Made by a program: the position numbers and the translations under genes. This document shows, in pieces, positions 13,985-43,407 of a stretch of DNA of 64,000 nucleotides. Position 1 is the first letter of the stretch. Every line of letters begins with the position of its first letter. The DNA comes from Nocardia tengchongensis (GTDB taxonomy: Bacteria; Actinomycetota; Actinomycetes; Mycobacteriales; Mycobacteriaceae). The notes beneath the pieces were generated by a model. The model did not search any database, had not been told where the DNA came from, and worked only from the letters and a program-made list of their open reading frames with translations. The DNA is taken from positions 992,001 to 1,056,000 of the forward strand of contig NZ_CP074371.1 of assembly GCF_018362975.1 (NCBI RefSeq), in the 5' to 3' direction.

Positions 13985-15574
13985 TCAGCGGCCGGGGCGC
14001 ACCGCCGGGAACGGGGTGGTCGGGGGCTCGTGAAGGATGTCCAGGAGGCCCTCGGCGCTGCGGGCCGCGGTGAGGCAGGCGTTGGCGGTGAACTGGTCCG
14101 CGAGGGGGTGGCGGGCTCGGGAGCGCCACTTGTGGACGGCGGCCAGGGCCACGTCGCGTTGGGTGGGTAGGTCGGTGTGGGCGGGTAGGCCCAGGCGGAG
14201 GGTGGGGGCCACCCCGGTGCCGCCGATCAGGCGGTTCAGTTCGGCCAGATCGTCAGGGGGGAGCGGCAATTCGTCGGCGCGCAGATGGGCCAGGAGGCGG
14301 AGTTCGGCGAAGCCGTGGACGTCGGCCAGGAGCGTGCGGACGCGCGGGAGCAGGGCGTCGGCGGTGGAACCGGGATTCGCGGCGAGGATACGGGCCAGGG
14401 CGGTGAGGGCGGAGTGGGCCTTGAGTTCGTCTGCGCGCTGGGCGAATTGGACGTCCAGGACGGTGCGGAGTTCGTCCAGGCCGCTGCGGCTGGAGAGTTC
14501 GGCGGCGAGCGCCTGCGAGCCGCGCACACCCAGGCGGATCAGGGTGACGGCCAGGCGGATGCCGAACAGGCCGAAACGCGCCGTCAGATGGGCGCGCAAT
14601 TCGGCGGGGACCGGCAGCGGCAGGTCGGGGTGGGCGAAACGGTCGGCCGAGAGCAGAGCCGTGGTCAACTCGTCGACCGGGATGGCGGCCAGCGCCTCGA
14701 ACGCGTCGTACTCGCGTTGCCGGAGCGTGGCGGCGGCGAACGCCAGCAGACCCGCCACCGGAATCACCGACTGGCACAGGCCCGTTCGCTCCAACTCGGT
14801 GGCGAAACGGGTGGCCACATCGCGGGCCGAATGCAGGGCGTCGATGCGGCCCGCACCGATCTCGTCGGCCCGCGACACCACGCCCACCACCCCGAGTGGA
14901 CCCGAGAAACTCTGCGGCACACCGGTACTGCCGCTCTGCCCGCCACCGATCTTCTCCAGGAAGTCGACATCGGCGGCGTCCAGCCGACGCAAGAGATAGA
15001 GGACGGCGTCGGCGGGCGGCAGGGCCGGGCCCGGACCGCCGGGCGTCAACAGGCGCGACGTTCGCGCCGACACCTCACGCGACAGCGACGAAATGCCGGG
15101 GGGTGTCGATGATGGTGGTCTGCGCCAGCTCCGCCGACGGCCACTCCACCGCCAGCTGATCCACCTCGCGCGGCGTCGGCGAATTCCAGCGCAACGCCGA
15201 CAGATCGAAGGTGAGGCCGTGCGCGCCGGGCAGGCCCTCGGCCCCGCGACCGCGGCGCACCACCACATCGGCGCGCGCACCGTCGGCGCTGTACGCGGTG
15301 ACCCGCGGCGCGGTCCCATTGCGGTACCAGGTGACCAGGCGCGTGCACTCGGTCGCGTCGGTCGGCGCGATGTCCTGCCCGACCAGCGCGTTCAACAGGG
15401 TCGACTTGCCCGCCTTGAGCTGACCGGCCAAGGCCACCCGCAACGGCTCGTCCAGCCGGCGCGCGCACTCGTCGAGCTGAGCCCGCACTCGCGGCCGCTC
15501 CCGAGCGCCCGCCGCGCCGCCGCCACCAGCCCGCGCGTCTCCGGCACCAGCCCGTATCCGACACCGCTCAACAC
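13985..15574 (-). pseudogene. iniC: IniC-like dynamin-family GTPase, disrupted by two apparent indels
   Basis: Homologue of mycobacterial IniC by remembered similarity: AGQLKAGKSTLLNALVGQDI (G1), IAPTDATECTRLVTWYRNG, then SRADEIGAGRIDALHSARDV (G4) and a long helical C-terminus. The best start is the GTG at 15574 (VLSGVGYGLVPETRGL) behind GGAGGT. A base is missing near 15485-15520, and a run of six G at 15098-15103 (five expected) breaks the G3 motif: IIDTPRHF must read IIDTPGISSLSREVS. Both repairs are exact. IniC acts with IniA in envelope-stress and drug-tolerance responses of mycobacteria. Last gene of iniB-iniA-iniC, with a 243-bp gap after iniA in which I see no gene. Confidence 0.8.
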
Positions 15575-15817
15575 ACCGCACCTCCACGCATCCGCAAGGC
15601 ATTCGCCCGGACACGCGGAATCGTTATCAGACCCCAGCAGGTCTCACAGCCGATTCCCAGTCCCGGGAACCGGCCCGCGCCGACGCCGGCCGCGACTCCG
15701 TCCGCCACACCACGATCTTGCCCGGGCCACGGCCGATCACCCCGACCCGACCCCGGTGCGCCGCGCCTGGCTCCCGCCGCCACACACCAAGACCCCCTGC
15801 GGCCTGGTGGGCGTGGC

Positions 15818-17683
15818 TCAGCGGCCGGGCGGGAGTTGCGTGCGGTCGGCCGGGGGCAACGCGTCGTGCGTCTCCGGACCGAGCAGCGCCCCGGCGTGGC
15901 GGCGGAGTTCACCGACCACGCGCAGGCGGCGCTCGAGTTCGGCGGCGCGTTCGGTGCGGCGGGCGGCCTCCACGTTGGCGGCCTCCTGGGCGGCGCGCAG
16001 CGATTCGTCGATCGAGCGCAGAGTGCGCTCGGCGATGGCGGTGAAATGATCGCGCAGCAGCCGGTGGATCCGGTGCAGACGGTCCTTCGTCTCCTTGCCG
16101 CTGTGGAAGGCGATGTCGTCGAGATAGCGGCGCACCGCCAGCTTGGCATCGGCGCGGCGCTTGGCCAGCCGAGCCTTCTTGTCGTCGCTGAACGCCTTGC
16201 CGCCCAACAGCACTCCCGCGCCCAGCGACAGCGGGTTGATCAGCGCCATCCCCGCCATGGTGCCGACCATGCCCGCCATTACCACGCCGCCGTACGAGCC
16301 GCGCACACCCACCAGCAGCTTGTGGCCCAGACCCAGGTCCGGTTCCAGATCGGCGAGGGTGCAGGACTCGGTGCGGGAGTCGTCGTCGAGGGTGTCGCGC
16401 ACCTCCGGCAGATCCACCGCGCCCAGATCGGTGAAGTGGGTGGCGACCTGCTCGGCCAGTTTCACCGCGCGGGTGCCGGTCCACACCAGGTTGTCGCCGA
16501 GCGCCGAACCCACGGTGGCCGTGAGCCATTCGTCCATGCTGTCCCAGTGCTTGCCGGGATCGTGGTCGTCGATCCAGTCCTCGGCGGTGCGGGCGATATC
16601 GCGCAGCCGGTTCCGCAGATCGTGGTCGATGTCGCCGGCCAGGTCGGTGATGCCGTCACCCAACGTCTGCTGCCAGGCGGCGGTGTGGCGGTGCAGCTTC
16701 TCCGCCTCGGCCTTGGCGGCGTGCAGTTCCCGGATGGCCGCCGCGCCTCGCGCCGGATCCCGCAACGCCACCAGCTCCGAACCCAGCGCGAGCGCCAGAT
16801 GCTCTGCGGCGGAGGAGATGTCCAGTGCGACTGCGCGCCGCAGGGCAGCCTGATCCCGTGCCACCACCTGTTCCCGCAGGAACTGGAACACCAGCCCGAA
16901 ACCGGACTCACGACCCAGGCTCTCGTCCTGCAGGCGCATGGCGTGCGCGCGCAGCAGCGCCGACACCGGCAGCATCGGCAGCTCGATCTCGTTGCCGCGC
17001 AGATGCTTCCGGTTCGCCTCGAACACCTGCCGCCAGTGCGGATACAGGTCGATCTTGGTGACCAGCACCGCGACCGCCGGGCACAACTCCCGCACCTGAC
17101 GCAGGAAATCGACTTCGGGATCGGTGAGTTCGGTGGACGCGTCGGTCAGCACCAGCACCGCGTCCGCGGCCGGCGCCTGCGCGAGCACCCCGGCCGCGCC
17201 GGTGGTTCCGTGCACGCCCAGTCCCGGGGTGTCCACCACGACGATGCCGTCGGCGAGCAGCTGACTCGGGGCCTCGAGCTCGAGGCGCAACATCGCCCGG
17301 CCCTGCGGGCTGCGCGCGGTGAGGGCCGGGACCGTCTCGAAAGGCACCGGCTCCCGGGTGTTCTCGCCGCCGTCCGCGCCCGCCGCGACCACCGTCGCGC
17401 GCGGTTGCGGGCCGTAGGACAGCACGGTGGTCACCGCGGTCGCCACGTCATCGGCGACCGGGCACACGTCCAGGTTGACGAGGGCGTTGACGAATCGGCT
17501 CTTGCCCTGATTCCCCAAGCCCGCCACCAGGATCCGGCGCCGCGGATCGCGAACCTTGCCCGCGACCGTCTCCAGCCGGGCGACCAGATCTCCGCGTTCC
17601 GCGGCCCGCGCCACCGCGATGGTCTCCGAGACCATCGTCAACAGCGGATTCGCCGCCACCATGCCTGTCATAACTCCCGTCAC
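15818..17683 (-). CDS. iniA: IniA-like dynamin-family GTPase
   Basis: 621 residues. GTPase motifs are intact: G1 AGLGNQGKSRFVNALV, G3 VVVDTPGLGVHG and G4 VLVTKIDLYPHW. A helical stalk follows, and a hydrophobic, Gly-rich paddle (YGGVVMAGMVGTMAGMALIN) near residue 470 that would insert in membrane. M. tuberculosis IniA is a bacterial dynamin-like protein shown to remodel membrane and to be induced by isoniazid and ethambutol. The GTG start overlaps the iniB stop (GTGA), so translation is probably coupled; an in-frame ATG four codons later is an alternative. Confidence 0.9.
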   Translation of the reverse strand: MTGVMTGMVAANPLLTMVSETIAVARAAERGDLVARLETVAGKVRDPRRRILVAGLGNQGKSRFVNALVNLDVCPVADDVATAVTTVLSYGPQPRATVVAAGADGGENTREPVPFETVPALTARSPQGRAMLRLELEAPSQLLADGIVVVDTPGLGVHGTTGAAGVLAQAPAADAVLVLTDASTELTDPEVDFLRQVRELCPAVAVLVTKIDLYPHWRQVFEANRKHLRGNEIELPMLPVSALLRAHAMRLQDESLGRESGFGLVFQFLREQVVARDQAALRRAVALDISSAAEHLALALGSELVALRDPARGAAAIRELHAAKAEAEKLHRHTAAWQQTLGDGITDLAGDIDHDLRNRLRDIARTAEDWIDDHDPGKHWDSMDEWLTATVGSALGDNLVWTGTRAVKLAEQVATHFTDLGAVDLPEVRDTLDDDSRTESCTLADLEPDLGLGHKLLVGVRGSYGGVVMAGMVGTMAGMALINPLSLGAGVLLGGKAFSDDKKARLAKRRADAKLAVRRYLDDIAFHSGKETKDRLHRIHRLLRDHFTAIAERTLRSIDESLRAAQEAANVEAARRTERAAELERRLRVVGELRRHAGALLGPETHDALPPADRTQLPPGR

Positions 17684-19740
17684 GAGTGCAGGATGTCGCC
17701 GACGATGTCGCCACCGGCGTGCGTCCCGAGATCCACCCCGGTGTGCGCGCCACCGTCGGCGAACAGCGACGCGTCCGGACCGGTGGTGTGCACGCCGCCG
17801 CCGAAGGCCTGCGAAACATCCACGCCGGCCCAGGGATTCGCGCCCGCACCGTGCAACCCGGCATCCACCGCGCTGCCACCGTGCACCCCGGCATCCAGGC
17901 CGCTGCCGACCTGCGCCGCGCCGCCGACCTGAGTCGCCCCGGTGACCCCGGTATCAAGTCCGCCGCCGATCCCGGCCACCGCGTTCCCGACCCCGGTGAG
18001 CCCGGTGTCGAGCCCGGCCCCGACCTGCGTACCCGCGCCGACCGCCGAGTGCACCCCGGCATCCAGGCCCGACCCGAGCTGCGTTCCGGCCCCGACCGCG
18101 CCGTGGAGTCCGGCATCGAGCCCGCCACCGACCTGGGTACCGATCCCGGTCGCCGCACCGCCCACGCCGGAAATGCCCGTCTCCAAACCACTTCCGACCT
18201 GCGCGCCCAGCCCGGTGCCCACATTCGCGGCACCGCCGAGCCCGGTCTCCAGACCGGCGCCGACCTGAGTACCCGCACCGATCGCACTGTGCAGTCCGGT
18301 ATCGAGCCCGCCGCCCAACTGCGTTCCCAGATCCGCACCCGTGTGCAAACCGGCGTCGAGGCCCGTCCCGAGCTGCGCGCCCGCACCGACCGCACTGTTC
18401 ACGCCCGCGCCGAGCCCGCTACCCAGCTGCGCACCCAGGTCCGCACCCGTGTGCAGACCGGCGTCGAGGCCCGTCCCGAGCTGTGCGCCCGCGCCGACGG
18501 CGCTGTTCAAGCCCGCCCCCAGCTGCGAGCCGAGATCCGCGCCCGCGTGCAAGCCGGTGTCCAGACCGCCACCGAGCTGTGCGCCCAGTCCGGCTCCCGC
18601 GTTGACGGCGGTTCCGAGGCCGGTCTGCAAGCCCGCGCCGATCTGGGTGCCCGCACCGATCGTGGTGCCGAGGCCCGCGTCGAGTCCGCTGCCGAGCTGG
18701 GTGCCGAGATCCGCGCCCGCGTGCAGGCCGGTGTCGAGGCCCGCGCCCAGTTGGGTGCCCGCGCCGAGGAGGGCGTCGGCCGCGCCGGACAGTCCGGTCT
18801 CCAGGCCGCTGCCGACCTGCGCGCCGAGGCCCGCTCCCGCGTTGGCGGCGGTGCCGAGGCCGGTCTGCACACCGAGGCCAGCGTTGAGCGCGCTGTCGAT
18901 ACCGGTGGCGAGGCCCGTGCCGGAGCCGGTGTTCAGTGCACCCCCGAGGCCGGTCTGCAGGCCCGCGGCGGCGTTGACGGCGGCGTTGATGCCCGCGCCG
19001 AGGCCGGTCTCGAGGTCGGCGGCGGTGGTGAGGGCGCCGGTCAGGCCGGTGGTGAGACCCGCGCCGCCCTGGGTGACCACGTTGATAGCGCCTTCGAGGC
19101 CGGTTTGCAGGCCCGCGCCCGCGGCCAGGCCGCCGGTGAGGGCGGAAGTCAGGTCCCCGGCGGCCTGGGCGCCGAGGACGCCGCCCAGGTTGGCCTCGAC
19201 GCCGGTGGCGACGTCACCGGCCACGCCGAGCGCCCCGCCGAGTCCGGCGGTAAGGCCCGCACCCAGGCCGGCGGCCGCGTCCACGACGCCGCCGATGCCA
19301 TTGGAGATGCCCAGTTCGAGGCCGGTGCCGGCGTCGCCGGTCAGGCACACCTGGGTGGCGGTGACGGTGGCGGCGCCCAGGTTCACGCCCACGTTGTCGC
19401 CGACCGCGGCGGTACCGCCGAGGCCCACGTTCGCGCCGGCTCCGGTGGTCGCGCCCAGACCGGCGCCCAGGCCCGCGTCGGCGCCGAGACCGGCGTCCGT
19501 GCCGAGGCCCGCGCCCAGGCCGGTGGCGCCGCCCGCGGCGATGATGCTCGACAGCTGCGAACCTCCGGCAACCAGCGCGGATTCGGCCACCATCGGCGCG
19601 ACGGCCGCGATGTCCTCCGGGGTCACGGTGTCCAGGCCGGCGGCGGTGAGGGCCGCGCCCGGGTTGTTGCAGTAGCTGACGGCGGCTTCGTGGTCGCGCA
19701 GCAGGTTGAGGATGAACTCGAGAATCGCGTTGGGGCTCAT
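17680..19740 (-). CDS. iniB: IniB-like Gly/Ala-rich repeat protein
   Basis: 686 residues. The first 60 or so match the IniB N-terminal domain (ILEFILNLLRDHEAAVSYCN, then AGLDTVTPEDIAAVAPMV). The rest is Gly/Ala/Leu-rich with two parts: an irregular part to about residue 210, then near-regular repeats of 18 residues (GLDTGLHAGADLGTQLGS type, some copies 22) to about residue 620, and a short non-repetitive tail ending GGDIVGDILHS. No signal peptide is evident. In mycobacteria iniB heads the isoniazid-inducible operon and its product resembles a cell-wall protein, but its role is unresolved. First gene of iniBAC, divergent from the Hsp70-like/IniR genes. Confidence 0.88.
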   Translation of the reverse strand: MSPNAILEFILNLLRDHEAAVSYCNNPGAALTAAGLDTVTPEDIAAVAPMVAESALVAGGSQLSSIIAAGGATGLGAGLGTDAGLGADAGLGAGLGATTGAGANVGLGGTAAVGDNVGVNLGAATVTATQVCLTGDAGTGLELGISNGIGGVVDAAAGLGAGLTAGLGGALGVAGDVATGVEANLGGVLGAQAAGDLTSALTGGLAAGAGLQTGLEGAINVVTQGGAGLTTGLTGALTTAADLETGLGAGINAAVNAAAGLQTGLGGALNTGSGTGLATGIDSALNAGLGVQTGLGTAANAGAGLGAQVGSGLETGLSGAADALLGAGTQLGAGLDTGLHAGADLGTQLGSGLDAGLGTTIGAGTQIGAGLQTGLGTAVNAGAGLGAQLGGGLDTGLHAGADLGSQLGAGLNSAVGAGAQLGTGLDAGLHTGADLGAQLGSGLGAGVNSAVGAGAQLGTGLDAGLHTGADLGTQLGGGLDTGLHSAIGAGTQVGAGLETGLGGAANVGTGLGAQVGSGLETGISGVGGAATGIGTQVGGGLDAGLHGAVGAGTQLGSGLDAGVHSAVGAGTQVGAGLDTGLTGVGNAVAGIGGGLDTGVTGATQVGGAAQVGSGLDAGVHGGSAVDAGLHGAGANPWAGVDVSQAFGGGVHTTGPDASLFADGGAHTGVDLGTHAGGDIVGDILHS
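17868..19113 (-). repeat. Tandem 54-bp (18-codon) repeats within iniB
   Basis: Degenerate in-frame repeats coding GL(D/E/Q)(T/A)G(L/V)...G(A/T)QLG units; most are 54 bp, some 66 bp. Copies differ at synonymous positions, so the array is old or selected at protein level. Not spaced by unique sequence. Confidence 0.8.
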
Positions 19741-20053
19741 GTTGAATCGTCTCCCTGGTGGGGCGGGCCCCGCTGACCCGCACTGCTCGAATTGCCTTTC
19801 ACGTTAGGAAGACGAGTTGTTACGCGTAAGGGGTGAACTCCCCCGATTTCCCCATCGCGGACCTTGGGGGTCAGGCAAACATTAGGGGAATTTCCCCAAA
19901 CCTGCCGGGGAATCGGTAACGGTTGCCCCCAGCTACCGACAGGCTCGGTGGGCCGCCCGGCCTAACAGAGGGTTTTCAGACATATCGGACCAAGAGCTTT
20001 CGAGCGGCACGCGAATCACCCACCGCGTGTCCGGTAATGACAGGGGAACTCGA
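19741..20053. promoter_or_regulatory. Divergent promoter region between iniB and the Hsp70-like gene
   Basis: 313 bp without a gene. It is less G+C-rich than its surroundings and has clustered G4-5/C4-5 blocks. The most symmetrical is GGGGAA-T-TTCCCC at 19886-19898 (perfect 6-bp arms); GGGG-tgaact-CCCC lies nearby around 19838-19852. These are the best candidates for binding by the IniR-like regulator encoded 2 kb away. No certain -10/-35 pair could be assigned. Confidence 0.5.
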
Positions 20054-21865
20054 ATGAGTCAGGGGCTGGCGCTCGGCATCACGGTCGGGTCGTCGAACAC
20101 GGTTGCCGTGACAACTTCGGGGGGACAACACAAGCTCCATACCCGGCCCAGCACGCTGGGCTCGGAGACGGAGCTTCCGGACAGTTTCCTGTCCCGGGTC
20201 GGGGATCCCGTGGACATCCGCACCAGCGACGGTTCCGCCGTCCGCGCCGCCGACCTGGTCGCGGGGGTCATCGGCCGCGTGGTGACGGACATGGGCCCGG
20301 CGGGCGCCTCGGTCGCCTGCTACCCGGCCTGGTGGTCGCAGCACACCGTGGAGGTGCAGCGGACCGCGCTCGATCGGGCGGGCCTGGAGGACGTGGCCCT
20401 GGTCCCGGAACCGGCGGCGGCGATGCGCTGGCTGCAGGACGTTCACGGGTCCAGCCGTGACGGCGCGATGGTGGTGTACGACCTCGGCGCGACCGGACTG
20501 ACCGTCTCGGTGGCCCGGACGGGCACCATGTCGGGCCTGCTCGGGGAGCCGGTCCGGACCACCGCCGTGGCGGGTTCCGAATTCGATCTGCTGACGATGC
20601 GTTATGTCCTCGCCTATGCGGTCGGCGAAAAGGATTTCGATCCTTTCGACCCGGTGGTGGAACAAGAATTGTCGGAGCTCCGGATTCGCTGCAAAATTGC
20701 GAAAGAAACTCTTTCCACTAATACGGCAACCATGGTGCCGGTGCGTTTGCCCATGCTCGGTGTCGCCGATGTGCGACTGGTTCGCGACGATATCGAGGAG
20801 CTGCTGCGGGGTCCGCTCCTCGGTTCGACCGACCTGGTCCGCGAGGCGCTGCGCCGGGCCGGACTCAGCACCGCCGACCTGGACGGCTTCCTGCTCATCG
20901 GCGGCGGCGCGAGCATCCCGCTGGTGACAGAAGTGCTGTCCACCGAATTCGGCGTCCCGGTCGCGGCCGCCGCCGACCCGGCGCACCTGAGCGCGCACGG
21001 CGCCGCCCTGCTGGCCGCCGACCTGCTCGCCGACATCACCGAAACCGAGGCGCACCCGGCCATCGCGATCGGCGGCCCGATCCACGCCGAGGCCGACACC
21101 GCGCTCGCGCCCTCGCGCACCACGGCGGGCCTGCCCCGCCGCCTCCCGACCGGCTCGCTACCGGAGCCTGCCGCCGAACCGCCGACCGCGGCCCCCCGCG
21201 TCGAGCAGACCGCGGAAACCACTGCCGCACCGCGCATTCCGGTGCTACCGGAACTGCCCGAGGCGGAAGCCGAGGGCGGCTTCCGGCACTGGAAGCGGCT
21301 GGCCGTGATCGGCGCCGCCGCCATCGCGGTGGCCGCGGTCGCGACCGGCTCGCTGGCCATGGGCACCGGCGCCCAGTCCACGCCCGCGAATACCGGAGGG
21401 ACGCAATCCCCTTCGACCTCGGCGGTCGCGTTGAACACGCCCGCGCCGAACGGCGGGGTCACCCCCTCCGGCACGCCGGGCACGCCCGCACAGGGCAGTC
21501 CGATCGCCGCGGTGAACTCGCCGCAACAGCCGGGGGCCACCCAGCCGGGCGGCACCCAGCCGGGCTCGCCCGCGCAGGCCGCCCCCGCGGGTGCACCGGG
21601 CGGACAGTCGGACACCCCTGCCCAGCAACAGAATCCGGCGCCCGAGCAGTCGCCGCAGACCCAGCAGACGCAACCCGCGCCCCAGCCGCAGCAGCCCGCC
21701 CCGGCGCAGCAGCAGCCGCCGGTGCAGACCATGCAGCTGCCATCGAACCCGGTCCCCGCCCCCGTGCAGGTGCCGGCGCCCCAGCTCCCCACGGGAGCCT
21801 TGAACAACGCCGTTGACGGACTCGGGAACGCGATTCCCCCGATCGTTCCGCATACCGGCCGCTGA
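20054..21865 (+). CDS. Membrane-anchored Hsp70-like protein with Pro/Gln-rich tail
   Basis: 603 residues from ATG 20054, preceded by AGGGGAA. Residues 1 to about 335 are an Hsp70 nucleotide-binding domain: LGITVGSSNTVAV (phosphate 1), VYDLGATGLTVSVART (phosphate 2) and LLIGGGASIPLVTEV (adenosine). The Hsp70 substrate-binding domain is absent. Instead a Pro-rich linker leads to one membrane helix near residue 418 (LAVIGAAAIAVAAVATGSLA) and a Thr/Pro/Gln-rich tail of about 165 residues that should be outside the membrane. The phosphate loops deviate from DnaK (DLGATGLT for DLGGGTFD), so ATPase activity is uncertain. Related proteins occur in other actinobacteria; function unknown. The IniR-like gene follows after 13 bp. 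Confidence 0.85.
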   Translation: MSQGLALGITVGSSNTVAVTTSGGQHKLHTRPSTLGSETELPDSFLSRVGDPVDIRTSDGSAVRAADLVAGVIGRVVTDMGPAGASVACYPAWWSQHTVEVQRTALDRAGLEDVALVPEPAAAMRWLQDVHGSSRDGAMVVYDLGATGLTVSVARTGTMSGLLGEPVRTTAVAGSEFDLLTMRYVLAYAVGEKDFDPFDPVVEQELSELRIRCKIAKETLSTNTATMVPVRLPMLGVADVRLVRDDIEELLRGPLLGSTDLVREALRRAGLSTADLDGFLLIGGGASIPLVTEVLSTEFGVPVAAAADPAHLSAHGAALLAADLLADITETEAHPAIAIGGPIHAEADTALAPSRTTAGLPRRLPTGSLPEPAAEPPTAAPRVEQTAETTAAPRIPVLPELPEAEAEGGFRHWKRLAVIGAAAIAVAAVATGSLAMGTGAQSTPANTGGTQSPSTSAVALNTPAPNGGVTPSGTPGTPAQGSPIAAVNSPQQPGATQPGGTQPGSPAQAAPAGAPGGQSDTPAQQQNPAPEQSPQTQQTQPAPQPQQPAPAQQQPPVQTMQLPSNPVPAPVQVPAPQLPTGALNNAVDGLGNAIPPIVPHTGR

Positions 21866-21878
21866 GAGTTGGTTCCTC

Positions 21879-24851
21879 GTGACAGGCGTTACCCCAGTCG
21901 CGCTCGATTCCCTTCCGGGCGCGCGAGAGATATTCCGGGACTTGGATTCCGGCGATTCCGGTGCGGTGCTGTATCTGATCCGCGGCCGCTCCGGCACCGG
22001 TAAGTCCACCCTGCTGGGCGCGATCCGGGCGCGGTTGCGCGCCCGCGGCGTCGCGCTCACCGACCATCCGGCGCAGGCGCCGCGCCCCTCGGGCGCGGAC
22101 CGCGCCGAGGACCTCACCGGCCGCCCCCGGATCGCCCTGATCGTCGACGACGCGCACACGCTCGGCCCGGCCGAGTTCGATCAGCTGTGCGCCGCCGCCG
22201 AAGCCGGGGAGTTCCCGGTGGTGATCGGACTGCGTCCGCGCCCGCACGACCCGCGCCTGCGCGGGCTCACCGATCTGGTGGCCCGCCGCGGCCGGGTGAT
22301 CGATCTGCGCGCCCTGGGCGCCACCGAGATCGCGCCATTCGCACGGGAATTGGGCATGATGGTGCCGCGCGGTCTGGCGCAGCACATTCATCGGCAGACC
22401 GGCGGCATCCACGGCGGCGTGGTAGCCGCCCTGACCGCCGCCTGCGCGACCCGCCTGGACGCGGGCGTGACCGCCGTCGATCAGGCGGTGACGGCGTGGG
22501 CGCGGACCCGGCTCGATGACGCCGACCCCGACCTGCTCGACGCCCTGGTGGTCGCGGCCATCGGCGCGGGCCTGGACACCGGGGAACTGACCGAGGTGCT
22601 CGACATCGCCCCGGCCGCCGCGCAGGGTCTGGTGGACCGGGCCCGGGGCAGCGCCCTGGTCACCGACGCCGACCTGCTGCTGGCCCCGGCGGTCGCGCCG
22701 CTGCGCACCCTGGTGGGTGACCGCCGCTTCCTGACCGTGGCCCGTCGCCTGCTGCACGCCCGCCTGGACGCCGGACTGCTGCGCGATCACACCGCGCTGC
22801 TGCTCGCCGAATCCGGTGTCCGCGACGAGCGGCTGGCCGGGTTCCTGTGCGCCGCCGCGGAACGCGCCGGTGACGAGGCGGTCCGGTATTACGCGGCCGC
22901 GGCCGCCGCCGGCGCCGATCCGGAGGGCCTGGCCGTGCGCTGGGCAGACGCCGCCGCCCGCCACGGCGACGGCGACACCGCGCTGCGGCTGGCCGAACCG
23001 AGCCTCGCGAATCCGGCGATCGCGCCGGCCGACCTGGCCGTCGCGGTCCGCGTCTGCGCCGGCGTCTGGACCCGGCGCGGCCTGGCCGATCGGGCGGCAC
23101 AGCTCTACACCTGGCTCGGGCCCGCCCGGGTGGGCGCGGACTGGGCGGTCGCGGCGACCGTGCTCTACCTGTCCGGCGATGCCCGTGGCGCACAGGAGCT
23201 CTCGGTCAATGCCGGGCAGTGGCCGCCCACCGAGGCCACCTCGCGGGCCGGGTCCATCGCACACGCGCTGTCCGATTCGATCGGATTGCCCGGCAGTCCG
23301 GGGTCGCAGCGGACCGGCGCGACGCAGACCGGTGCGAACGCGCACGGAATCGGCCGCGGCCACAACGGCATCCAGCACCCGACACCGTCCGGTGCTGCGG
23401 GCAATGGCCACGGCGGCACCGGATACCCCGCTGCCCCAGGCGCTCTCGACCGCTCCCGGCCCGGGCCGAGCCCGGCTACGACCGGGGCCCTCGGACGAGG
23501 AGCCTTCAACGCGGTCGCCGAACGCAATGGCGGTACGGTCGCGACAGGCGGCGACGCGCGCCCCGCGGTCACCGCCGCGCCGCCCACCGCCACCGCGGCG
23601 CAGCCCAATGGCTTCGGAACCGTATCGGCCCCAACCGGATTCACCGCCGAGATGCGGGCGGTCCCGCCCGCGACCCTGGCCGGTCAGCGTTTCGCGAACC
23701 CGGCACAGGCCCGCCGCGGCGCGGCCGTGTCGGCGGCCTCGGCGCTGATTCACGCCGCGCACTCCGGCCCGGCGCCGGCCGATGACGGCGGCGATCGCTT
23801 CCTGCCCTGCTCGGCGGTGTCGATCGCGGTGCTGTTGTGCCTGAGCATGGGTGATCCGCGGCGCGCCGCCGACGCCCTGCGCGGCGCGTCCCGCGATCCG
23901 CAGTCCCTGGTGCTGGGCGCGTGGGTCGCCATGCTGGGCGGCGACGAGCACGGTGCGGCGACGCTGGTGTCGGAAGTCCGGGTGGCGGAACTGGATCCGC
24001 GGGATCGGCTGCTCGCGCACGGCGTGATCGTCGGTCTGGCCCGGCGCAGCGGCGACCATGCCGCCCTCGCCATGGCCTGGCAGGCGGCGTACCCGCTGTT
24101 CGACGAGGTCGGCGCGGACCTGCTGGCGCTGCTGCCCATCGGTGAATTATGGCTGGCCGGAATCCGTTTGCGGGACGAGGCGCGGATGACCGCGCTGGTG
24201 ACCGCCGCCGACGAACTGCTGCGCCGGCTCGGCGAACCGCCGGTCTGGTCGAATGCCTTCCACTGGTATGCGATTCAGGCGGCCATCGCCCAGGAGAGCC
24301 CGGAAGCCCTGCTGCCGCACGCGCATCGGTTGAAGACGGCCGCGTCCGCGGGCGATCCGCAGGCCGCGGTGCTGGCCGACGCGGGCCGCACCTGGGTGCT
24401 GGTGTTGCGCGGTCAGGTGGTGCGGGATCGGGTGGAGGGCGCGGTGTCGCGTCTGGCCGGGCTCGGCCTGCGCTGGGATGCCGCCCGGCTGGCCAGTGAG
24501 GCCGCGCTGGCGGCCGGCGATTCGGCCACCGCGACCGCGCTGCTCAAGCTGGCCCGCACGGTGCGCGCGCAGTCCCGGCCGTCGGAATCGCCGGTGCGGG
24601 TGTCCGAGCCCGCGGCCCCGCAGGCGCGCCCGGAACCGGTCACCGATACCGTGCTGAGCGAACGCGAACGTGAAGTGGCCGAACTGGTGCTGCTCGGTTT
24701 GACGTACCGGGAGATCGGGGCTCGGCTCTACATCTCGGCCAAAACCGTGGAACATCACGTGGCCCGGATGCGACGTCGAATCGGTGCGAGCTCGCGTTCG
24801 GAGTTATTGTCAATGCTTCGCGCCATGGGTCACGGTTCACTCCTCGTCTGA
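21879..24851 (+). CDS. iniR: IniR-like STAND ATPase / LuxR-family regulator
   Basis: 990 residues from a GTG (VTGVTPVALDSLPGAREIF), 13 bp after the Hsp70-like gene; an ATG at 21813 in the same frame would overlap that gene. Walker A is IRGRSGTGKSTLL near residue 38, with a Walker B-like RIALIVDDAHTL. A long helical, TPR-like middle has a low-complexity Gly/Asn insert around residues 490-580. The C-terminus is a LuxR/GerE DNA-binding domain (LSEREREVAELVLLGLTYRE, then ISAKTVEHHVARMRRRIG). Position beside iniBAC and this architecture match mycobacterial IniR (Rv0339c), reported to activate iniBAC under envelope stress in response to free trehalose. The gene symbol rests on that resemblance. Confidence 0.82.
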   Translation: MTGVTPVALDSLPGAREIFRDLDSGDSGAVLYLIRGRSGTGKSTLLGAIRARLRARGVALTDHPAQAPRPSGADRAEDLTGRPRIALIVDDAHTLGPAEFDQLCAAAEAGEFPVVIGLRPRPHDPRLRGLTDLVARRGRVIDLRALGATEIAPFARELGMMVPRGLAQHIHRQTGGIHGGVVAALTAACATRLDAGVTAVDQAVTAWARTRLDDADPDLLDALVVAAIGAGLDTGELTEVLDIAPAAAQGLVDRARGSALVTDADLLLAPAVAPLRTLVGDRRFLTVARRLLHARLDAGLLRDHTALLLAESGVRDERLAGFLCAAAERAGDEAVRYYAAAAAAGADPEGLAVRWADAAARHGDGDTALRLAEPSLANPAIAPADLAVAVRVCAGVWTRRGLADRAAQLYTWLGPARVGADWAVAATVLYLSGDARGAQELSVNAGQWPPTEATSRAGSIAHALSDSIGLPGSPGSQRTGATQTGANAHGIGRGHNGIQHPTPSGAAGNGHGGTGYPAAPGALDRSRPGPSPATTGALGRGAFNAVAERNGGTVATGGDARPAVTAAPPTATAAQPNGFGTVSAPTGFTAEMRAVPPATLAGQRFANPAQARRGAAVSAASALIHAAHSGPAPADDGGDRFLPCSAVSIAVLLCLSMGDPRRAADALRGASRDPQSLVLGAWVAMLGGDEHGAATLVSEVRVAELDPRDRLLAHGVIVGLARRSGDHAALAMAWQAAYPLFDEVGADLLALLPIGELWLAGIRLRDEARMTALVTAADELLRRLGEPPVWSNAFHWYAIQAAIAQESPEALLPHAHRLKTAASAGDPQAAVLADAGRTWVLVLRGQVVRDRVEGAVSRLAGLGLRWDAARLASEAALAAGDSATATALLKLARTVRAQSRPSESPVRVSEPAAPQARPEPVTDTVLSEREREVAELVLLGLTYREIGARLYISAKTVEHHVARMRRRIGASSRSELLSMLRAMGHGSLLV

Positions 24852-24893
24852 CCTCGGCGCGGAGGACCGGACGCACCGAGTGAGGTAACGACG

Positions 24894-26039
24894 ATGGCGA
24901 CTGGCGTGGGCCTGCGGATCGCGGACGACGAATCCGTCGTCGCCGTGGTGACGGGCGACGACGCCACGCTCCCGGTGCACTACACCGTCCGCGAATCCGT
25001 GCTGCACATGTCCGACGACGGGGACGCCGTGCTCGGCGGCGAGGCGCCGGAGGGCTATACGCACTCCATTCGCGGCTTCGTCGGCGCGGTCGGCGACCCG
25101 GCCGGACTGCCGGTCGACGACGGCGAGGCCTACCGCGCCGAGGACCTGATGGCCACCGCGGTCTTCTGCCTCATCAGCCAGGCCGCCGAGCACCTGAACG
25201 GTCCCGCCGAGTTCTATCTGGCCCACCCGACCGGCTGGACCGAGGCGCACGCGCGGTCGCTGCGCGAGGCCCTCGACTATCTGGGCCTGAAGTCGGTGGT
25301 GCTGGTCAGCGAGCGCGACCTACCGCAGGCGGACGCGGAGACGGGCAAGACCCTCGCCTACAACGCGGCCCGTGCGGCCCTGGCGGCGGTGCTGTCCACC
25401 CCGGCCGGGCTGACGCCGCCCGATGCCACCGCGTCCGCCGTCAACGCCGCCGATGTCACCGATGTGCTGCCCGCACTGAAGGCTTCCGACTCGATGGCCC
25501 AAGCGTATTCGGCCGCGGTCGCCGCGGTCCCGGCCGCGACCGCCGCCGAACCGGCGGTGACCCGTTCGATTCCGGCGCCCGCGGTCCGGCACGCGCCGCG
25601 CGCCGGTCGCGGCCCGTACATCATCGCCGGGATCGCCGCGCTGATCGGTTTGCTGCTCGGTGGCATCGGGGTAGCTGCGGTGTGGCGCCAGGACGACTCG
25701 ACGCCCGGCCCGCCGCGCGGCGAGGTGCGTTCGGAGCCGGACGCCGCCACCGCGGGGGTGGCGCCGCCGCTGCTGCCGCCCACCGGTTCGCTGCATCCGA
25801 CCGCGGCCGCGCCCGTCGATCCGGCCGACGCCCCGGCGACCTCCGAAGCGCCGGCCACCACCACGCCGCCGCCGACCACCACACCGGAGCCGACCACCAC
25901 CCTGCCGCCGGTTCCGGCGACCACGCCGCCCACCACGACCCGTCCGTATCCGCCGGTCTACCAGTACCCGCCGGTGCCGACCTTCGGTCTGCCGCCGGCC
26001 CCGGTGCTGCAGGACCCGTGGGGACAGAGTCAGCGCTGA
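24894..26039 (+). CDS. Degenerate Hsp70-like membrane protein with Thr/Pro-rich tail
   Basis: 381 residues. The N-terminal ~165 residues look like the first lobe of an actin/Hsp70 fold (VGLRIADDESVVAVVTGDDA; AEFYLAHPTGWTEAHARSLR), but the second lobe with phosphate-2 and adenosine motifs is missing. One transmembrane helix lies near residue 245 (YIIAGIAALIGLLLGGIGVA), followed by a Thr/Pro-rich extracytoplasmic tail ending YPPVPTFGLPPAPVL. It therefore repeats the architecture of the protein at 20054 with half an ATPase. GAGGTAACG precedes the ATG. It follows iniR by 42 bp, probably in the same transcript. Function unknown. Confidence 0.72.
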   Translation: MATGVGLRIADDESVVAVVTGDDATLPVHYTVRESVLHMSDDGDAVLGGEAPEGYTHSIRGFVGAVGDPAGLPVDDGEAYRAEDLMATAVFCLISQAAEHLNGPAEFYLAHPTGWTEAHARSLREALDYLGLKSVVLVSERDLPQADAETGKTLAYNAARAALAAVLSTPAGLTPPDATASAVNAADVTDVLPALKASDSMAQAYSAAVAAVPAATAAEPAVTRSIPAPAVRHAPRAGRGPYIIAGIAALIGLLLGGIGVAAVWRQDDSTPGPPRGEVRSEPDAATAGVAPPLLPPTGSLHPTAAAPVDPADAPATSEAPATTTPPPTTTPEPTTTLPPVPATTPPTTTRPYPPVYQYPPVPTFGLPPAPVLQDPWGQSQR

Positions 26040-26088
26040 TTTCGTAGCGACCTTCCGAGGTTTGTGCCCTAAAGTGGTGCGCTGACCG

Positions 26089-26102
26089 ACCTTCCGGAAG
26101 GT
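26089..26102. promoter_or_regulatory. Perfect 14-bp palindrome upstream of the first S1 protease
   Basis: ACCTTCCGGAAGGT lies 57 bp before the protease start. The 10-mer CGACCTTCCG containing its left half also occurs at 26048-26057, giving one and a half sites. It could be an operator or part of a transcript end for the upstream gene; no regulator is assigned. Confidence 0.4.
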
Positions 26103-26158
26103 AACCGGATCCCGGGCCTGGAACGGTCGGTCTGCTGGGTGCACTACGAAGGGACTCC

Positions 26159-27508
26159 ATGCGCAAGTTCACGGCGCGCCGCGCCACGGTCCGAGCAGCC
26201 ACCGTCGCCGTTGCCTCGACCGTCCTATTGGGTCCCCTTCTGAGCACCGCCGGCGCCGAGCCGGCGTCCCCGGATCAGCTTGCCGCCGAAAGTCTTCCGG
26301 CCGAGCTGGTGACCGCCATCCAGCGCGATCTGAAGATGACGCCCGCCGAATACCTGGACCGGTCGGCCAAGGCCCAGCAGTTGCGGAACTACGCGACCGA
26401 CTTCCGCACCCAGCGCCCCGATGATTTCGCGGGCGCCTGGATGGGCACCGACGGCAAGCCGGTGCTGGCCGTCACCTCCCTCGACGCCGCCAAGATCGCG
26501 GCCGCCGACGGCTACCAGACCCGGCTGGCCCCGATCAGCGCCGACGGCCTGGAGAACTCGGTCGATCAGCTGAACCAGTGGATCACCGGTCTGCCGCGCG
26601 AGATCTCCGGCGCCATCAATTCGGTGGCCATCGACTTCCTCAACAGCCAGCTGGTGCTCAGTGTCGCCAACACCCCCGGCGGCCATTTGCTGAATCTGCC
26701 CACGCTGATCGCCAATATCAAGGTGATCCTGTCGCCGAACTCGGGCGGACCGGTGGAGCGGCGGCCGATGGGCGGCGACACCTACATCACCGCGCCGACG
26801 CCGCTCGACTCGTCGCTGCACGGCGTGGATGTGTGCTCGTTCGGATTCAACAGTGTCGATTCGGCCGGTAATGCCCTGAACATCAGTGCCGGGCATTGCA
26901 ATCCGAATGTCGACAAGGGCACCGGCGCCGACGTCTATCTGCCGAATGTCAAAAACCTGTTGGCCAGCCCGAAGGTCGGCAGTTTCGTGACCGCGAACCT
27001 GGGCGGTCGCAGCGCGCTCGACTATTCGGTGATCAAGCTCAATGACGACGCGGTGCGAGCCGGTATGGATCAGCCGTCGGTGCGCGGCGCCAATGGCACC
27101 ACCCTCACCATTACCGGTGTGGCCGACCCGATCACCGGCGCCCCGGTCTGCAAGTCGGGCCAGTCGTCCACCTTCACCTGCGGTTTCGTGGTGGCGGATC
27201 GGGTGGAGACGCAGCTGTACACCTCCGAGGGCCAGTCGAAGACGATCCGCGGTTTCGCGTCCAGCGCCTGCACTCTGGGCGGCGACAGCGGTGGCGCGAT
27301 CGTGACCGGCACACTGGCGCTGGGAATCACCAGCGGTTCGAATGCGGCGGACGCTCCGAACTGCAACGAAGCCAACACACAGCTGGCGCAGTACGGCGGC
27401 ACCGCGTCGCTGGGTATCCCGCTGCGCCCGATTCTGACCGATATCGACGCCAATTCCGGTGGCGGTGTGGGCAGCGGAATTCAGGTGCGCACGCGCTCGC
27501 ACGAGTGA
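26159..27508 (+). CDS. Secreted S1-family (chymotrypsin-like) serine protease
   Basis: 449 residues with a Sec-type signal peptide (positive RKFTARRATVR, hydrophobic core, likely cleavage after STAGA). A propeptide-like region of about 180 residues follows, as in alpha-lytic protease relatives (LPAELVTAIQRDLKMTPAEY). The protease domain has the triad His in NISAGHCNPN, Asp in SALDYSVIKLND and Ser in LGGDSGGAI, plus cysteines placed for disulfides (VDVCSFGF/SAGHC and the C-terminal pairs). Good AAGGGA site. A paralogue follows; both are downstream of the Hsp70-like/IniR genes but separately promoted, judging by the 119-bp gap and the terminator between them. Confidence 0.9.
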   Translation: MRKFTARRATVRAATVAVASTVLLGPLLSTAGAEPASPDQLAAESLPAELVTAIQRDLKMTPAEYLDRSAKAQQLRNYATDFRTQRPDDFAGAWMGTDGKPVLAVTSLDAAKIAAADGYQTRLAPISADGLENSVDQLNQWITGLPREISGAINSVAIDFLNSQLVLSVANTPGGHLLNLPTLIANIKVILSPNSGGPVERRPMGGDTYITAPTPLDSSLHGVDVCSFGFNSVDSAGNALNISAGHCNPNVDKGTGADVYLPNVKNLLASPKVGSFVTANLGGRSALDYSVIKLNDDAVRAGMDQPSVRGANGTTLTITGVADPITGAPVCKSGQSSTFTCGFVVADRVETQLYTSEGQSKTIRGFASSACTLGGDSGGAIVTGTLALGITSGSNAADAPNCNEANTQLAQYGGTASLGIPLRPILTDIDANSGGGVGSGIQVRTRSHE

Positions 27509-27530
27509 GTGATCGGCACTGAGTAGCGGA

Positions 27531-27558
27531 TTCGCGGCCCGTGGCGACGGGCCGCGAA
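27531..27558 (+). terminator. Terminator after the first S1 protease
   Basis: TTCGCGGCCCGT and ACGGGCCGCGAA form a perfect 12-bp stem with a GGCG loop, 22 bp after the stop codon. Confidence 0.8.
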
Positions 27559-27677
27559 AATCGGACATCCATCTCATTGGGTGTCAATCTGACATGCCCG
27601 CTGTTTGCCCTGCGAATACCGAAACGTCACCTGGCAATAAGTAGGCATAACGGTCCCGACACCATATAGTCGGGGCC

Positions 27678-29024
27678 ATGCTCCTGCCACGTATGCGCTC
27701 CTCCATGCCTGCCGCGGGCCGACGGCCGCGGTCCCTTGTCCGAACTGCGGCGATCGCGGCCACCGCGGTACTCGTCGCCGGACCCCTGGCGGCGAGCGCG
27801 CACGCGGAGCCTGAAACCCCCGCGACCCCGAATCTGCCGGCCGAACTGGTGGCCGCGATCACCCGCGATCTCAAGATCTCCCCGCAGGACTACCTGAACC
27901 GCGCCGACGTCGCGCAGAAGGTGGCCACCTTCGCCACCACCGCGCAGCGGCAGTTCCCGGATGTCTTCGGTGGCGCCTGGCTGGACGAGACGGGCAAGGC
28001 GGTCGTGGCGCTCGCTCCCGGCGATGCGCACGAGCAGGCCCGCAAGGCCGTGCAGGACGCCGGCTTCGTCGCCAAGGACGTCGCCAAGAGCGAGACCACG
28101 CTGCGCGGCGAGAAGAACGCCTTCCAGCAGTGGCTGAAGGACCAGCCGGAGTCGGTGTCGAAGTCGATCCGGGGCGTGGCCGTCGACAGCCTGAACAACA
28201 GCATCGCGGTGCGGGTCGACAAGGCCGACATCCCGCTCCCCGGTTTCGTGGACCCGGCCCGGGTCATCGTGATGGCCGCCCCGCCGGTCGGCGGCGAGGG
28301 CCAGGACGTGCCGAAGGCCGCCGAGATCGCCGGCGCCGGCCCGCGCGCCATGGCCGCCGGTGACGCGTTCGCCTCGGTCGCCGGTCGCATGTCGCTGCGC
28401 TGCTCGCTCGGCTTCAACGGCGTGGACGGCAACGGCAACGTCGTGAACATCACCGCGGGCCACTGCAACCCGAACATCCCCGCCACCGGCGGCGCGAACT
28501 CCCCGGGCGTGTTCCAGCTGGTCGGCGGCGAGAGCCTGGGCCCGCAGATGGGCTCGTTCCAGAAGTCGGTGCTGGGCAACCAGGACTACTCGATCATCGC
28601 CGTCAACGACCAGTTCCGTGACAGCTTCTCCAACCCGCTGGTGACCGTGCCGGGCGCGGCCCCGATCTCGGTGACCGGCGTGGCCGTGCCCGTCGTCGGC
28701 GCCCCGGTGTGCAAGTCGGGCGCACGCGCCGGCTTCAGCTGCGGTGTGGTGAACGCCGTCGACCAGTCCGTCCAGGTCGGCGACCGCCTGCTCACCCAGT
28801 CCTTCTCCGCCAATATCTGCGCCCTGCCCGGTGATTCGGGCGGCCCGCTGGTGACCGGCACCCTGGCCCTGGGCATCTCCAGCGCCTCCTCGGTCGCCGA
28901 CTACCCGATCTGCGAGATCCCGAACCTGATCGGTCTGATCACCGGCAACACCCCGCAGCTGTTCGCGCAGCCGGTGAGCACCGTGCTCTCCGACAACCCG
29001 GGCCTGCGGGTGCGCACCAGCTAG
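27678..29024 (+). CDS. Secreted S1-family serine protease (paralogue)
   Basis: 448 residues with the same plan as the preceding gene: signal peptide (RTAAIAATAVLVAGPLAASA, cleavage near AHA), prodomain (LPAELVAAITRDLKISPQDY) and protease domain with His in NITAGHCNPN, Asp in GNQDYSIIAVND and Ser in LPGDSGGPLVTGT. Codon use is more G/C-biased and uniform than in the first copy, suggesting stronger expression. The tandem paralogues probably arose by duplication. Targets are unknown. Confidence 0.9.
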   Translation: MLLPRMRSSMPAAGRRPRSLVRTAAIAATAVLVAGPLAASAHAEPETPATPNLPAELVAAITRDLKISPQDYLNRADVAQKVATFATTAQRQFPDVFGGAWLDETGKAVVALAPGDAHEQARKAVQDAGFVAKDVAKSETTLRGEKNAFQQWLKDQPESVSKSIRGVAVDSLNNSIAVRVDKADIPLPGFVDPARVIVMAAPPVGGEGQDVPKAAEIAGAGPRAMAAGDAFASVAGRMSLRCSLGFNGVDGNGNVVNITAGHCNPNIPATGGANSPGVFQLVGGESLGPQMGSFQKSVLGNQDYSIIAVNDQFRDSFSNPLVTVPGAAPISVTGVAVPVVGAPVCKSGARAGFSCGVVNAVDQSVQVGDRLLTQSFSANICALPGDSGGPLVTGTLALGISSASSVADYPICEIPNLIGLITGNTPQLFAQPVSTVLSDNPGLRVRTS

Positions 29025-30827: not shown

Positions 30828-31092
30828 TCGGTTGGTTTCCAATCCGTCATCAGGTATATCCGCTGTGCGCTCTTCGCCACGCGAGGCCCGGCTTCCCTCG
30901 GGCCATGCCTACGCGCTAGGACGAGTCCTCCCCGAGCATGTGAAGACGCGCACAGCTGTCGGACAGCGTGAGCCTAGTCGATCACATTACGATTTGCGAG
31001 ATTCGTTTCTTTCTGCACGCCAGCACGTTTCGAAGTAAGCCTGCCCTTGGTTACGACTGCGATTTGCCGGGATTTACGGTGTGGGAAACCCT

Positions 31093-34200: not shown

Positions 34201-34386
34201 CCGGGCGCCGAGCCGGTCGCCCCGGCCGAGCCCGCCGCCTCGGTCGAGCCGGCCGCGTCGGAGAGCAACGGCACGTCGGCAGGCAATGGCGCGACCGAGG
34301 CCAACGGCGCCGCCAATCCGCCCGCCGCGAAGCCGGGTGGGCTCGGCTTCAAGTCGGGCATGAAGGCTCCGGGCCGGAAGAACTAG
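31204..34386 (+). CDS. etfD: EtfD-type membrane Fe-S oxidoreductase with Lys-rich repeat tail
   Basis: 1060 residues. The N-terminal ~230 residues hold several membrane helices (VTLGTIGAVFTVFCWASFIG; WLVMIGFLAGFILWFEAYG; VIGIVVLIVIRQL). Two 4Fe-4S clusters follow (CTECGRCQSQCP and CTTCGACVEQCP), then two CCG domains (FWVGCAGAYED...; YHDPCYLGRHN... and SMCCGAGGARM). This is the HdrD/GlpC-like architecture of M. tuberculosis Rv0338c (EtfD), which passes electrons from ETF to the respiratory chain during beta-oxidation. The last ~280 residues are Ala/Pro-rich with eight GLxMKxxxKxPGxK repeats. Preceded by a long palindrome and followed by a strong terminator, so it is monocistronic. Confidence 0.9.
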   Translation: MNALTVTLGTIGAVFTVFCWASFIGGVRNIVRTVMVGQSAPDRWRPFFPRFKTMLVEFLAHTRMNKFRTVGWAHWLVMIGFLAGFILWFEAYGQTFDPEFHWPIIGSWGIYHLVDEFLGIGTVIGIVVLIVIRQLNHPRVPARLSRFSGSKFAPAYVIESIVLVEGLGMVFVKAGKIATYHESHTWSDFFTEQVAKLLPESIAMVSVFAFIKLISGATFLLLVGRNVTWGVAWHRFAAFPNIYFKRENDGDVALGAAKPMMSNGKPIEMETADPDNDTFGVGKFEDFSWKDILDVTTCTECGRCQSQCPAWNTGKPLSPKLLIMSLRDHGYAKAPYLLAGGRKDMGGDEIGLVDAEGKPNERALAQISEAARAEAERPLVGGEDVNGIIDPEVLWSCTTCGACVEQCPVDIEHVDHIIDMRRYQVLIESEFPSELAGLFKNLENKGNPWGQNAKDRLNWISEVDFEVPVFGKDADSFDGYEYLFWVGCAGAYEDRAKKTTKAVAELLATAGTKFMVLGQEETCTGDSARRAGNEFLFQQLAMQNIELLNSVFEGVEQAKKKIVVTCAHCFNALNNEYPQVGGTYEVVHHTQLLNRLVRGKQLVPVSPVAQNVTYHDPCYLGRHNKIYNAPRELMEASGSTLVEMPRHAERSMCCGAGGARMWMEEQLGKRINIDRVDEALDTLKGGNEPSMIATGCPFCRVMLTDGVTARKDGGEVGQGVEVVDVAQLMLQSIDRVDAAILTENLKVVQQPKAEPEPEPTPEPVKAEATVAEAPAAAEPKAAPAGGGLGMKGGLKPPGGKGLAMKGGLKAPGAKAEAPAAEAAPAAAAEAAAPAPAKGLAMKGGLKAPGGKGLAMKGAAKAPGTKAETASAAAAPAEAAPAEAAAAPEAPAAKPGGLAMKGGLKAPGGKGLQMKGAAKAPGAKPAAEAAPAEAPAAAAPAPAAEAPAAAAPAAEAKPSIAPKGLAMKSGLKRPGPKAPGAAAPAAAPEAPAAPADSAPAPGAEPVAPAEPAASVEPAASESNGTSAGNGATEANGAANPPAAKPGGLGFKSGMKAPGRKN
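33550..34386 (+). repeat. GLxMKGGLKxPGGK repeats in the EtfD tail
   Basis: Eight copies of a ~14-residue basic motif (GLGMKGGLKPPGGK, GLAMKGGLKAPGAK, GLAMKGAAKAPGTK, GLQMKGAAKAPGAK, GLAMKSGLKRPGPK and variants, the last GLGFKSGMKAPGRK) are separated by Ala/Pro/Glu linkers of 0-45 residues. Confidence 0.85.
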
Positions 34387-43202: not shown

Positions 43203-43407
43203 CCGCAGCCCATCTCGTTCACATACACCTGTCGCCGTCACCTTACGACGTGCCGGGCCATCCGTACACCCGGCGAACCCGCCCACCGGACGGCGTAATA
43301 GCGCCATTCCATGACAGTCAACTGTCCAGGCAGCGGCCGATTTCCGCCGGACGCCCGGCCGAAACCACTAGCGGGTAGCGCAACTCACTCTCGCGCGTCT
43401 TCCCGGT

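Follow-up and report, generated by a model that had tools for sequence, protein, structure and literature searches.

What does an Hsp70-like gene contribute to a locus that otherwise encodes dynamin-like GTPases and their regulator? The question is raised by a stretch of 64,000 nucleotides from Nocardia tengchongensis (hereafter the window; C1:992001-1056000 of the genome G000, a Nocardia genome of 8.0 Mb in one contig), in which iniB, iniA and iniC face, across a divergent promoter region, genes for an Hsp70-like membrane protein (HSP1), an IniR-like regulator and a protein with half of an Hsp70-type domain (HSP2). Its gene content marks the locus as the form that the Ini envelope-stress system takes in Nocardia; its gene order is that of mycobacteria-like genomes. 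Based on the collective evidence from genome comparison, HSP1 is understood, with a probability of about one half, as a core component of the Ini locus that serves as an IniR-driven switch or scaffold for IniA and IniC. We show by comparison that the Hsp70-like gene stays in the ini locus throughout the class and through several gene orders, that it is usually read together with iniR, and that it follows the dynamins.

A preliminary description of the window had proposed neighbourhood analysis of iniR as a check on this linkage, and the analysis, now carried out, finds the linkage conserved in both kinds of sample used. A scan of named genomes for IniR gave 77 loci sorted by similarity to the window, 54 of them from Nocardia and the rest from Mycobacterium, Pseudonocardiales and Micromonosporales; seven (L010, L033, L035, L046, L064, L065, L074) have no flank upstream of iniR. 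Of the 70 loci with enough flank, 66 have the Hsp70-like gene immediately before iniR and in the same orientation, more than chance would give; L002 is counted among the 66 though only the end of its gene is visible. The four exceptions comprise two loci without the gene (L008, L039), one with the gene beside iniC (L055) and one that ends near iniA and in which none is seen (L062). Because the named-genome list was sorted by similarity to the window, two taxonomic samples were drawn as well. One took 121 genomes from the order, of which 27 have IniR; the other took 296 from the class, again with 27 IniR genomes, 17 of these new. In both, the 20-kb regions around IniR were searched with profiles. 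Labels for these sampled genomes such as "mycobacteria-like" or "Micromonosporaceae-like" follow from their scores and from relatives that have names. With one genome excluded (G112), 43 of the 44 sampled IniR genomes can be judged, and 42 have a non-DnaK Hsp70-like gene inside the 20-kb ini region. It is directly upstream of iniR and on the same strand in 34, and elsewhere in the locus in eight (G052, G060, G126, G131, G153, G170, G185, G200), including one (G060) whose ini locus is split across contig ends and whose Hsp70-like gene lies beside iniB. Genes like iniR, iniA, iniC and iniB are also present in Micromonosporaceae and Pseudonocardiaceae (L056-L077, L122-L142), families that are not known to make mycolates; trehalose mycolates would therefore not be the general signal or target of the system.

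Does the gene follow the dynamins or the regulator? In the class sample, IniR and an IniA match of more than 590 bits, a line set after the list was seen, occur in precisely the same 27 genomes, and all 27 have the Hsp70-like gene. The gene is missing from four of four IniR loci without iniA and iniC (L137 of G010; L142, the second IniR of G076; L008; L039), yet it lies beside iniA-iniC in two of nine weaker IniA-like loci without IniR (L234, L236), and the idea of a strict IniR partner is weakened accordingly. In the many-contig genomes of L008 and L039, the only relative of IniA is 40% identical, and nothing Hsp70-like scores above DnaK level. In rearranged loci, the Hsp70-like gene is divergent from iniB with iniR placed beyond iniC (five genomes of family f27), follows iniC (G126), or is convergent with iniC (G052 and L055). 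Co-occurrence and the rearranged loci together favour a dynamin partner, and the proposal that Hsp70-like proteins are partners of the GTPases fits in so far as the gene follows iniA and iniC rather than iniR. Observed beside these loci were an IniB-like neighbour of the second IniR of G076, where dynamins and Hsp70-like gene are both missing, and a short divergent gene near four IniA-like loci of family f32 (L237, L238, L239, L241), whose IniR-profile match of 17-23 bits was treated as a shared DNA-binding domain; it is possibly another regulator of a dynamin pair. A candidate paralogous dynamin-Hsp70 locus (G399, G400) was rejected, as its Hsp70-like genes lie about 9 to 15 kb from the IniA paralogue and are too distant.

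HSP1 shares with iniB a control region and, by sequence comparison, a conserved putative promoter element, TTAGGGG. Measured against dinucleotide shuffles, the element precedes HSP1 in all 36 Nocardia loci tested, where 1.1 would be expected, and it precedes the Hsp70-like gene in 15 of 17 other named-genome loci (0.5 expected) and 20 of 22 sampled genomes (0.7 expected). The sets tested represent 36 of 49 gene-bearing Nocardia loci (window included), 17 of 18 other loci and 22 of 23 genomes, and they share species (L068 and L127 are identical), hence are not independent. The extended element of the window, TTAGGGGAATTTCCCC, is the sole exact copy in the 8.0-Mb genome; a second operator in that genome was considered and dropped, the search giving one match with two mismatches at 7,724,939 and the backward control also giving one. 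A paired form, TTAGGGGN{6,14}TTAGGGG, has 10 matches in six mycobacteria-like genomes, overlapping in two of them (triple repeat) and all placed by coordinates at the ini locus. TTAGGGG also occurs between iniR and a second Hsp70-like gene in five of five genomes with that gene behind iniR, and it is retained before iniB or the Hsp70-like gene in rearranged loci with iniR elsewhere (L175, L177) or with no usual divergent region (L178, L179, L181); before these genes it was not found in L173, L174 and L180, and it is missing from nine of nine IniA-like regions without IniR. For M. tuberculosis, a published table lists at -14, just upstream of Rv0339c (iniR), a sequence with two copies of TTAGGGG nine bases apart (PMC5515968, in the portion available). 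ChIP-seq places IniR on the iniBAC promoter, and the available text describes IniR as specific for iniBAC (PMC5760070), which fits the rarity of the element. TTAGGGG is our predicted IniR site.

The protein itself is Hsp70-like, as first described (Pfam HSP70, 67.5 bits against a cut-off of 20.6, residues 87-324). It consists of a complete Hsp70-type nucleotide-binding domain (1-335), a helix (412-430) and a disordered Pro/Gln-rich C-terminal tail; beyond the domain, the structure model is disordered except for one helix. The Pfam match ends at profile position 375 of 599, leaving HSP1 without a substrate-binding domain. Only Hsp70-type rows appear in the VIA list among the 50 matches listed for HSP1, which leaves room for other actin-like families. 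The earlier term ATPase holds for the fold and is doubtful for the activity. Lysine stands in 0 of 112 aligned Hsp70-like rows at the column of the catalytic lysine, which we take to be K70 in DnaK numbering; 24 of 49 Nocardia rows (one of the 49 probably a half protein, judged by gaps) have a gap there, and further hydrolytic residues are gone in Nocardia and mycobacteria-like genomes. The membrane helix and Pro-rich outer tail proposed earlier are likewise features of HSP1 itself that do not generalize: at a hydropathy threshold of 1.6, a helix after the domain is called in 0 of 11 Micromonosporaceae-like proteins and in 18 of 31 other distant Hsp70-like proteins, and outside the domain the soluble forms are very unlike the membrane forms. 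We therefore reject the outer sensory tail as a generally essential part, and the ancestral protein probably did not serve for outer sensing by a tail.

The designation of HSP2 as half an Hsp70 proved apt. It has no Pfam family match; a profile-profile comparison, by contrast, pairs it with the N-terminal lobe of HSP1-family proteins with a probability of 98.7, a profile search covers positions 34-152 of 362, and its AlphaFold model has a single actin-type lobe (residues 1-170) in place of the two-lobed domain, followed by a hydrophobic stretch at about 244-264 (model helix 245-256) and a Pro/Thr-rich tail. This one-lobed Nocardia protein differs from the second gene of some mycobacteria-like genomes, which in the tree is a separate duplicate of the full domain. 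Plain DnaK was ruled out for the ini-linked copies, their identity to the DnaK of the window being 20-34% as against at least 93% for the true DnaK copies found in loci. The relocated copies of G052 and L055 group inside the mycobacteria-like HSP1 clade (13 rows, support 98/91) and therefore look like the same gene moved to another position. Further Hsp70-like genes were seen: one at 41808-43307 (-) of the window, unlinked to ini genes, whose product has one helix and a Pro/Thr-rich tail, matches the HSP1 profile with 112 bits and clusters in the tree with another paralogue of the same genome; a pair on one strand within 6 kb (G000:C1:3289454-3294788), the second with a glycine-rich tail; and an extra gene that follows iniC in the same orientation in mycobacteria-like L121 and L186 and is sister to the group formed by the second Hsp70-like genes of such genomes.

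The mechanism we propose would start with envelope damage, upon which IniR becomes active and binds TTAGGGG. It would then raise iniBAC and the HSP1-iniR operon jointly, thus establishing a positive feedback. The Hsp70-type domain would bind ATP while hydrolysing little or none of it, and HSP1 would act as a nucleotide-gated switch or scaffold, not as a chaperone, and so hold the IniA/IniC assembly on the membrane or set its place or timing. In Nocardia and mycobacteria, the Hsp70-like protein may itself be membrane-tied, and HSP2, with one lobe and a membrane anchor, may be a derived companion of HSP1. An evolutionary extension, to which we give somewhat less than an even chance, would have as the ancestral unit a nucleotide-binding, poorly hydrolysing switch of Hsp70 fold together with the dynamin pair, the switch gating membrane remodelling by IniA/IniC across the Actinomycetes, with or without mycolates, and IniR being added later via TTAGGGG.

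Several observations weigh against the understanding of HSP1 as a core switch for the dynamins. Seven of nine weaker IniA-like loci without IniR lack the gene; the one IniR genome of 43 without an Hsp70-like gene (G010) has no iniA or iniC within 20 kb. A single origin of all linked Hsp70-like proteins is not supported, since DnaK and four paralogues fall among them in the tree and at least four changes are needed to account for the linked proteins. The copies that have moved, those of G052 and L055, have no TTAGGGG ahead of them. ATP binding by HSP1 is predicted from its residues, and IniA, IniC and IniR are predicted partners for contact. Lastly, in 15 of 18 non-Nocardia loci the Hsp70-like gene runs 4 bases into iniR, stop over start, a gene coupling that favours the regulator as partner.

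This coupling, together with the same-strand position directly upstream of iniR in most genomes, is consistent with HSP1 being a sensor arm of IniR: a membrane-tied, nucleotide-dependent protein that might hold and release the STAND regulator and so pass on the envelope or ATP state. The domain order of IniR is MalT-like (PMC5760070, in part), and iniBAC induction tracks the ATP level in M. bovis BCG (PMC6104191, in part), which a non-hydrolysing ATP binder could report. The distribution of the gene over loci with only dynamins or only regulator speaks against a sensor arm, as do the seven genomes with the full gene set in which iniR is elsewhere in the locus (G052, G126 and the five of f27). 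Moreover, IniR of M. marinum or M. tuberculosis is described in the available text as sufficient for promoter activation in M. smegmatis (PMC5760070), an objection softened by the host's own dnaK-like gene. We regard the sensor arm as rather unlikely on balance. Lower still stands the notion that HSP1 is a mere regulon mate, a separate protein of envelope growth (e.g., at the pole, with FhaA) that makes no contact with Ini proteins. The recovery of MSMEG_0692 of M. smegmatis among the interactors of FhaA (PMC11898655, in part) and the divergence of soluble and membrane forms outside the domain point that way; the persistence of the gene beside iniB or iniC across several gene orders, and its absence jointly with iniA and iniC, make it improbable. 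That HSP1 works as an Hsp70 chaperone reserved for the folding of Ini proteins is very improbable despite the complete nucleotide-binding domain, given that neither model nor Pfam match includes a substrate-binding domain, that the catalytic lysine is missing throughout, and that HSP1 scores far under the equivalog cut-offs for DnaK (57.8 versus 822.55) and HscA (68.4 versus 708.55).

The remaining genes of the locus (Table 1) were largely named correctly in the preliminary description, and its spacings are exact: 313 bp from the iniB start to the HSP1 ATG, 13 bp from the HSP1 stop to the IniR GTG (21879) and 42 bp from the IniR stop to the HSP2 ATG; iniB and iniA overlap by 4 bases. IniA matches a solved structure and the IniB N-terminal domain scores above its cut-off, bearing out both assignments. 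NF038181 is by far the top match of IniR, at 464.1 bits under a cut-off of 750. The call of iniC stands by its Dynamin_N match (39.1 bits in ORF 15075-15614) and fails as a single open frame. Relative to N. terrae IniC, the gene breaks up into three pieces that lie in two frames, the shifts being near 15,498 and 15,099; most relatives, unlike the window, have an intact single-frame iniC, and the breaks would be either real damage or an error in the single-contig assembly. The two putative S1 proteases are paralogues (37% identical over their length), the first without a Pfam match; present in the window, they are otherwise seen only in loci of the genus Nocardia and two genomes of a sister genus, limiting their proposed membership of the island. 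A secreted-looking protein of 247 aa without a family (30099-30842, -) separates the proteases from the iron-sulphur reductase in most Nocardia loci; in some it is duplicated. We take this reductase to be Rv0338c-like.

Table 1. Features of the ini locus in window coordinates.
Feature	Position	Strand	Basis
iniC, dynamin-like GTPase, broken	13985..15614	-	ORFs 15075-15614 and 13985-15319; tblastn of N. terrae IniC
iniA, dynamin-like GTPase	15818..17683	-	Dynamin_N 53 bits; solved IniA 6j72, E 7.7e-152
iniB, glycine/alanine-rich, IniB N-terminal domain	17680..19740	-	NF038175 63.1 bits, cut-off 40
Divergent promoter region, iniB versus HSP1, 313 bp	19741..20053	.	between the two starts
Predicted IniR operator TTAGGGGAATTTCCCC	19882..19897	+	contains TTAGGGG
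HSP1, Hsp70 nucleotide-binding domain, helix and tail	20054..21865	+	Pfam HSP70; structure model
IniR-like STAND ATPase, C-terminal LuxR-type DNA-binding domain	21879..24851	+	NF038181 464 bits; GerE 51.8 bits (C-terminus)
HSP2, single Hsp70-type lobe	24894..26039	+	profile-profile match; AlphaFold model
Secreted trypsin-like protease, paralogue 1	26159..27508	+	37% identity to paralogue 2
Secreted trypsin-like protease, paralogue 2	27678..29024	+	Pfam Trypsin 20.9 bits, cut-off 20.6
Iron-sulphur reductase, synteny marker	31204..34386	+	flanks ini locus in Nocardia and mycobacteria-like loci

The preliminary description knew of no account of such proteins as part of the Ini system. One sentence in the available text of PMC5760070 does mention that M. 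smegmatis has a dnaK-like gene "directly downstream of iniR", and in the open-licence literature that sentence is all we found on a conserved Hsp70-like Ini-locus component. The protein would also connect bacterial dynamins with an Hsp70-type fold, a connection for which we found no description in that literature. A separate line of work reports MSMEG_0692 as a Pro/Thr-rich, "ATP binding" protein with one helix, detected only in cross-linked complexes of the polar envelope-growth protein FhaA, with Rv0312 given as its M. tuberculosis orthologue (PMC11898655, in part). As the regulator is MSMEG_0691 and IniA is MSMEG_0695 (PMC8088520, PMC2945938, both in part), MSMEG_0692 is, from the locus tags alone, probably HSP1, an equation that itself tempers our interpretation. 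The tag order suggests the iniA-facing side, in difference to the downstream placement in PMC5760070; five of the mycobacteria-like genomes sampled have a gene of this kind in each of the two places. A move of the gene to the far iniC end, of the G052/L055 type, would explain the scant notice it has received in mycobacterial work.

Our study has importance in that the function of IniA and IniC and the signal of IniR belong to a stress response that front-line drugs against tuberculosis induce. The same locus, and probably the same regulon, supplies another conserved protein, the third, whose nucleotide-binding fold could provide a handle on IniA/IniC and IniR in M. smegmatis. The predicted operator being near-unique in the genomes searched, the regulon would be predictable from sequence.

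Regarding known systems, clear analogies exist with IniR-iniBAC of mycobacteria (Boot et al. 2017, PMC5760070, as far as its text is available): the dynamins IniA and IniC, IniB, an IniR-like protein, the adjoining iron-sulphur reductase and the regulator opposite iniBAC are shared, whereas the place between iniB and iniR is taken by the Hsp70-like gene here and by iniB* there. MSMEG_0692 resembles HSP1 in its single helix, Pro/Thr-rich composition, "ATP binding" annotation and a tag between those of regulator and IniA; the available text of PMC11898655, however, neither calls it Hsp70-like nor places it in the Ini locus. From the nucleotide-binding domain of Hsp70/DnaK, the present family is distinguished by the lack of a substrate-binding domain, the loss of the catalytic lysine and, often, the presence of a helix and disordered tail. 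In the maltose system, MalK, a membrane-side nucleotide-binding partner, holds the STAND regulator MalT. The Ini locus offers a parallel, with a STAND regulator ending in a LuxR-type domain and a membrane-side nucleotide-binding protein, the putative partner here being of Hsp70 fold. The Ini system and the Hsp70 fold are both known; the conserved Hsp70-like component of the Ini locus appears to be the new part.

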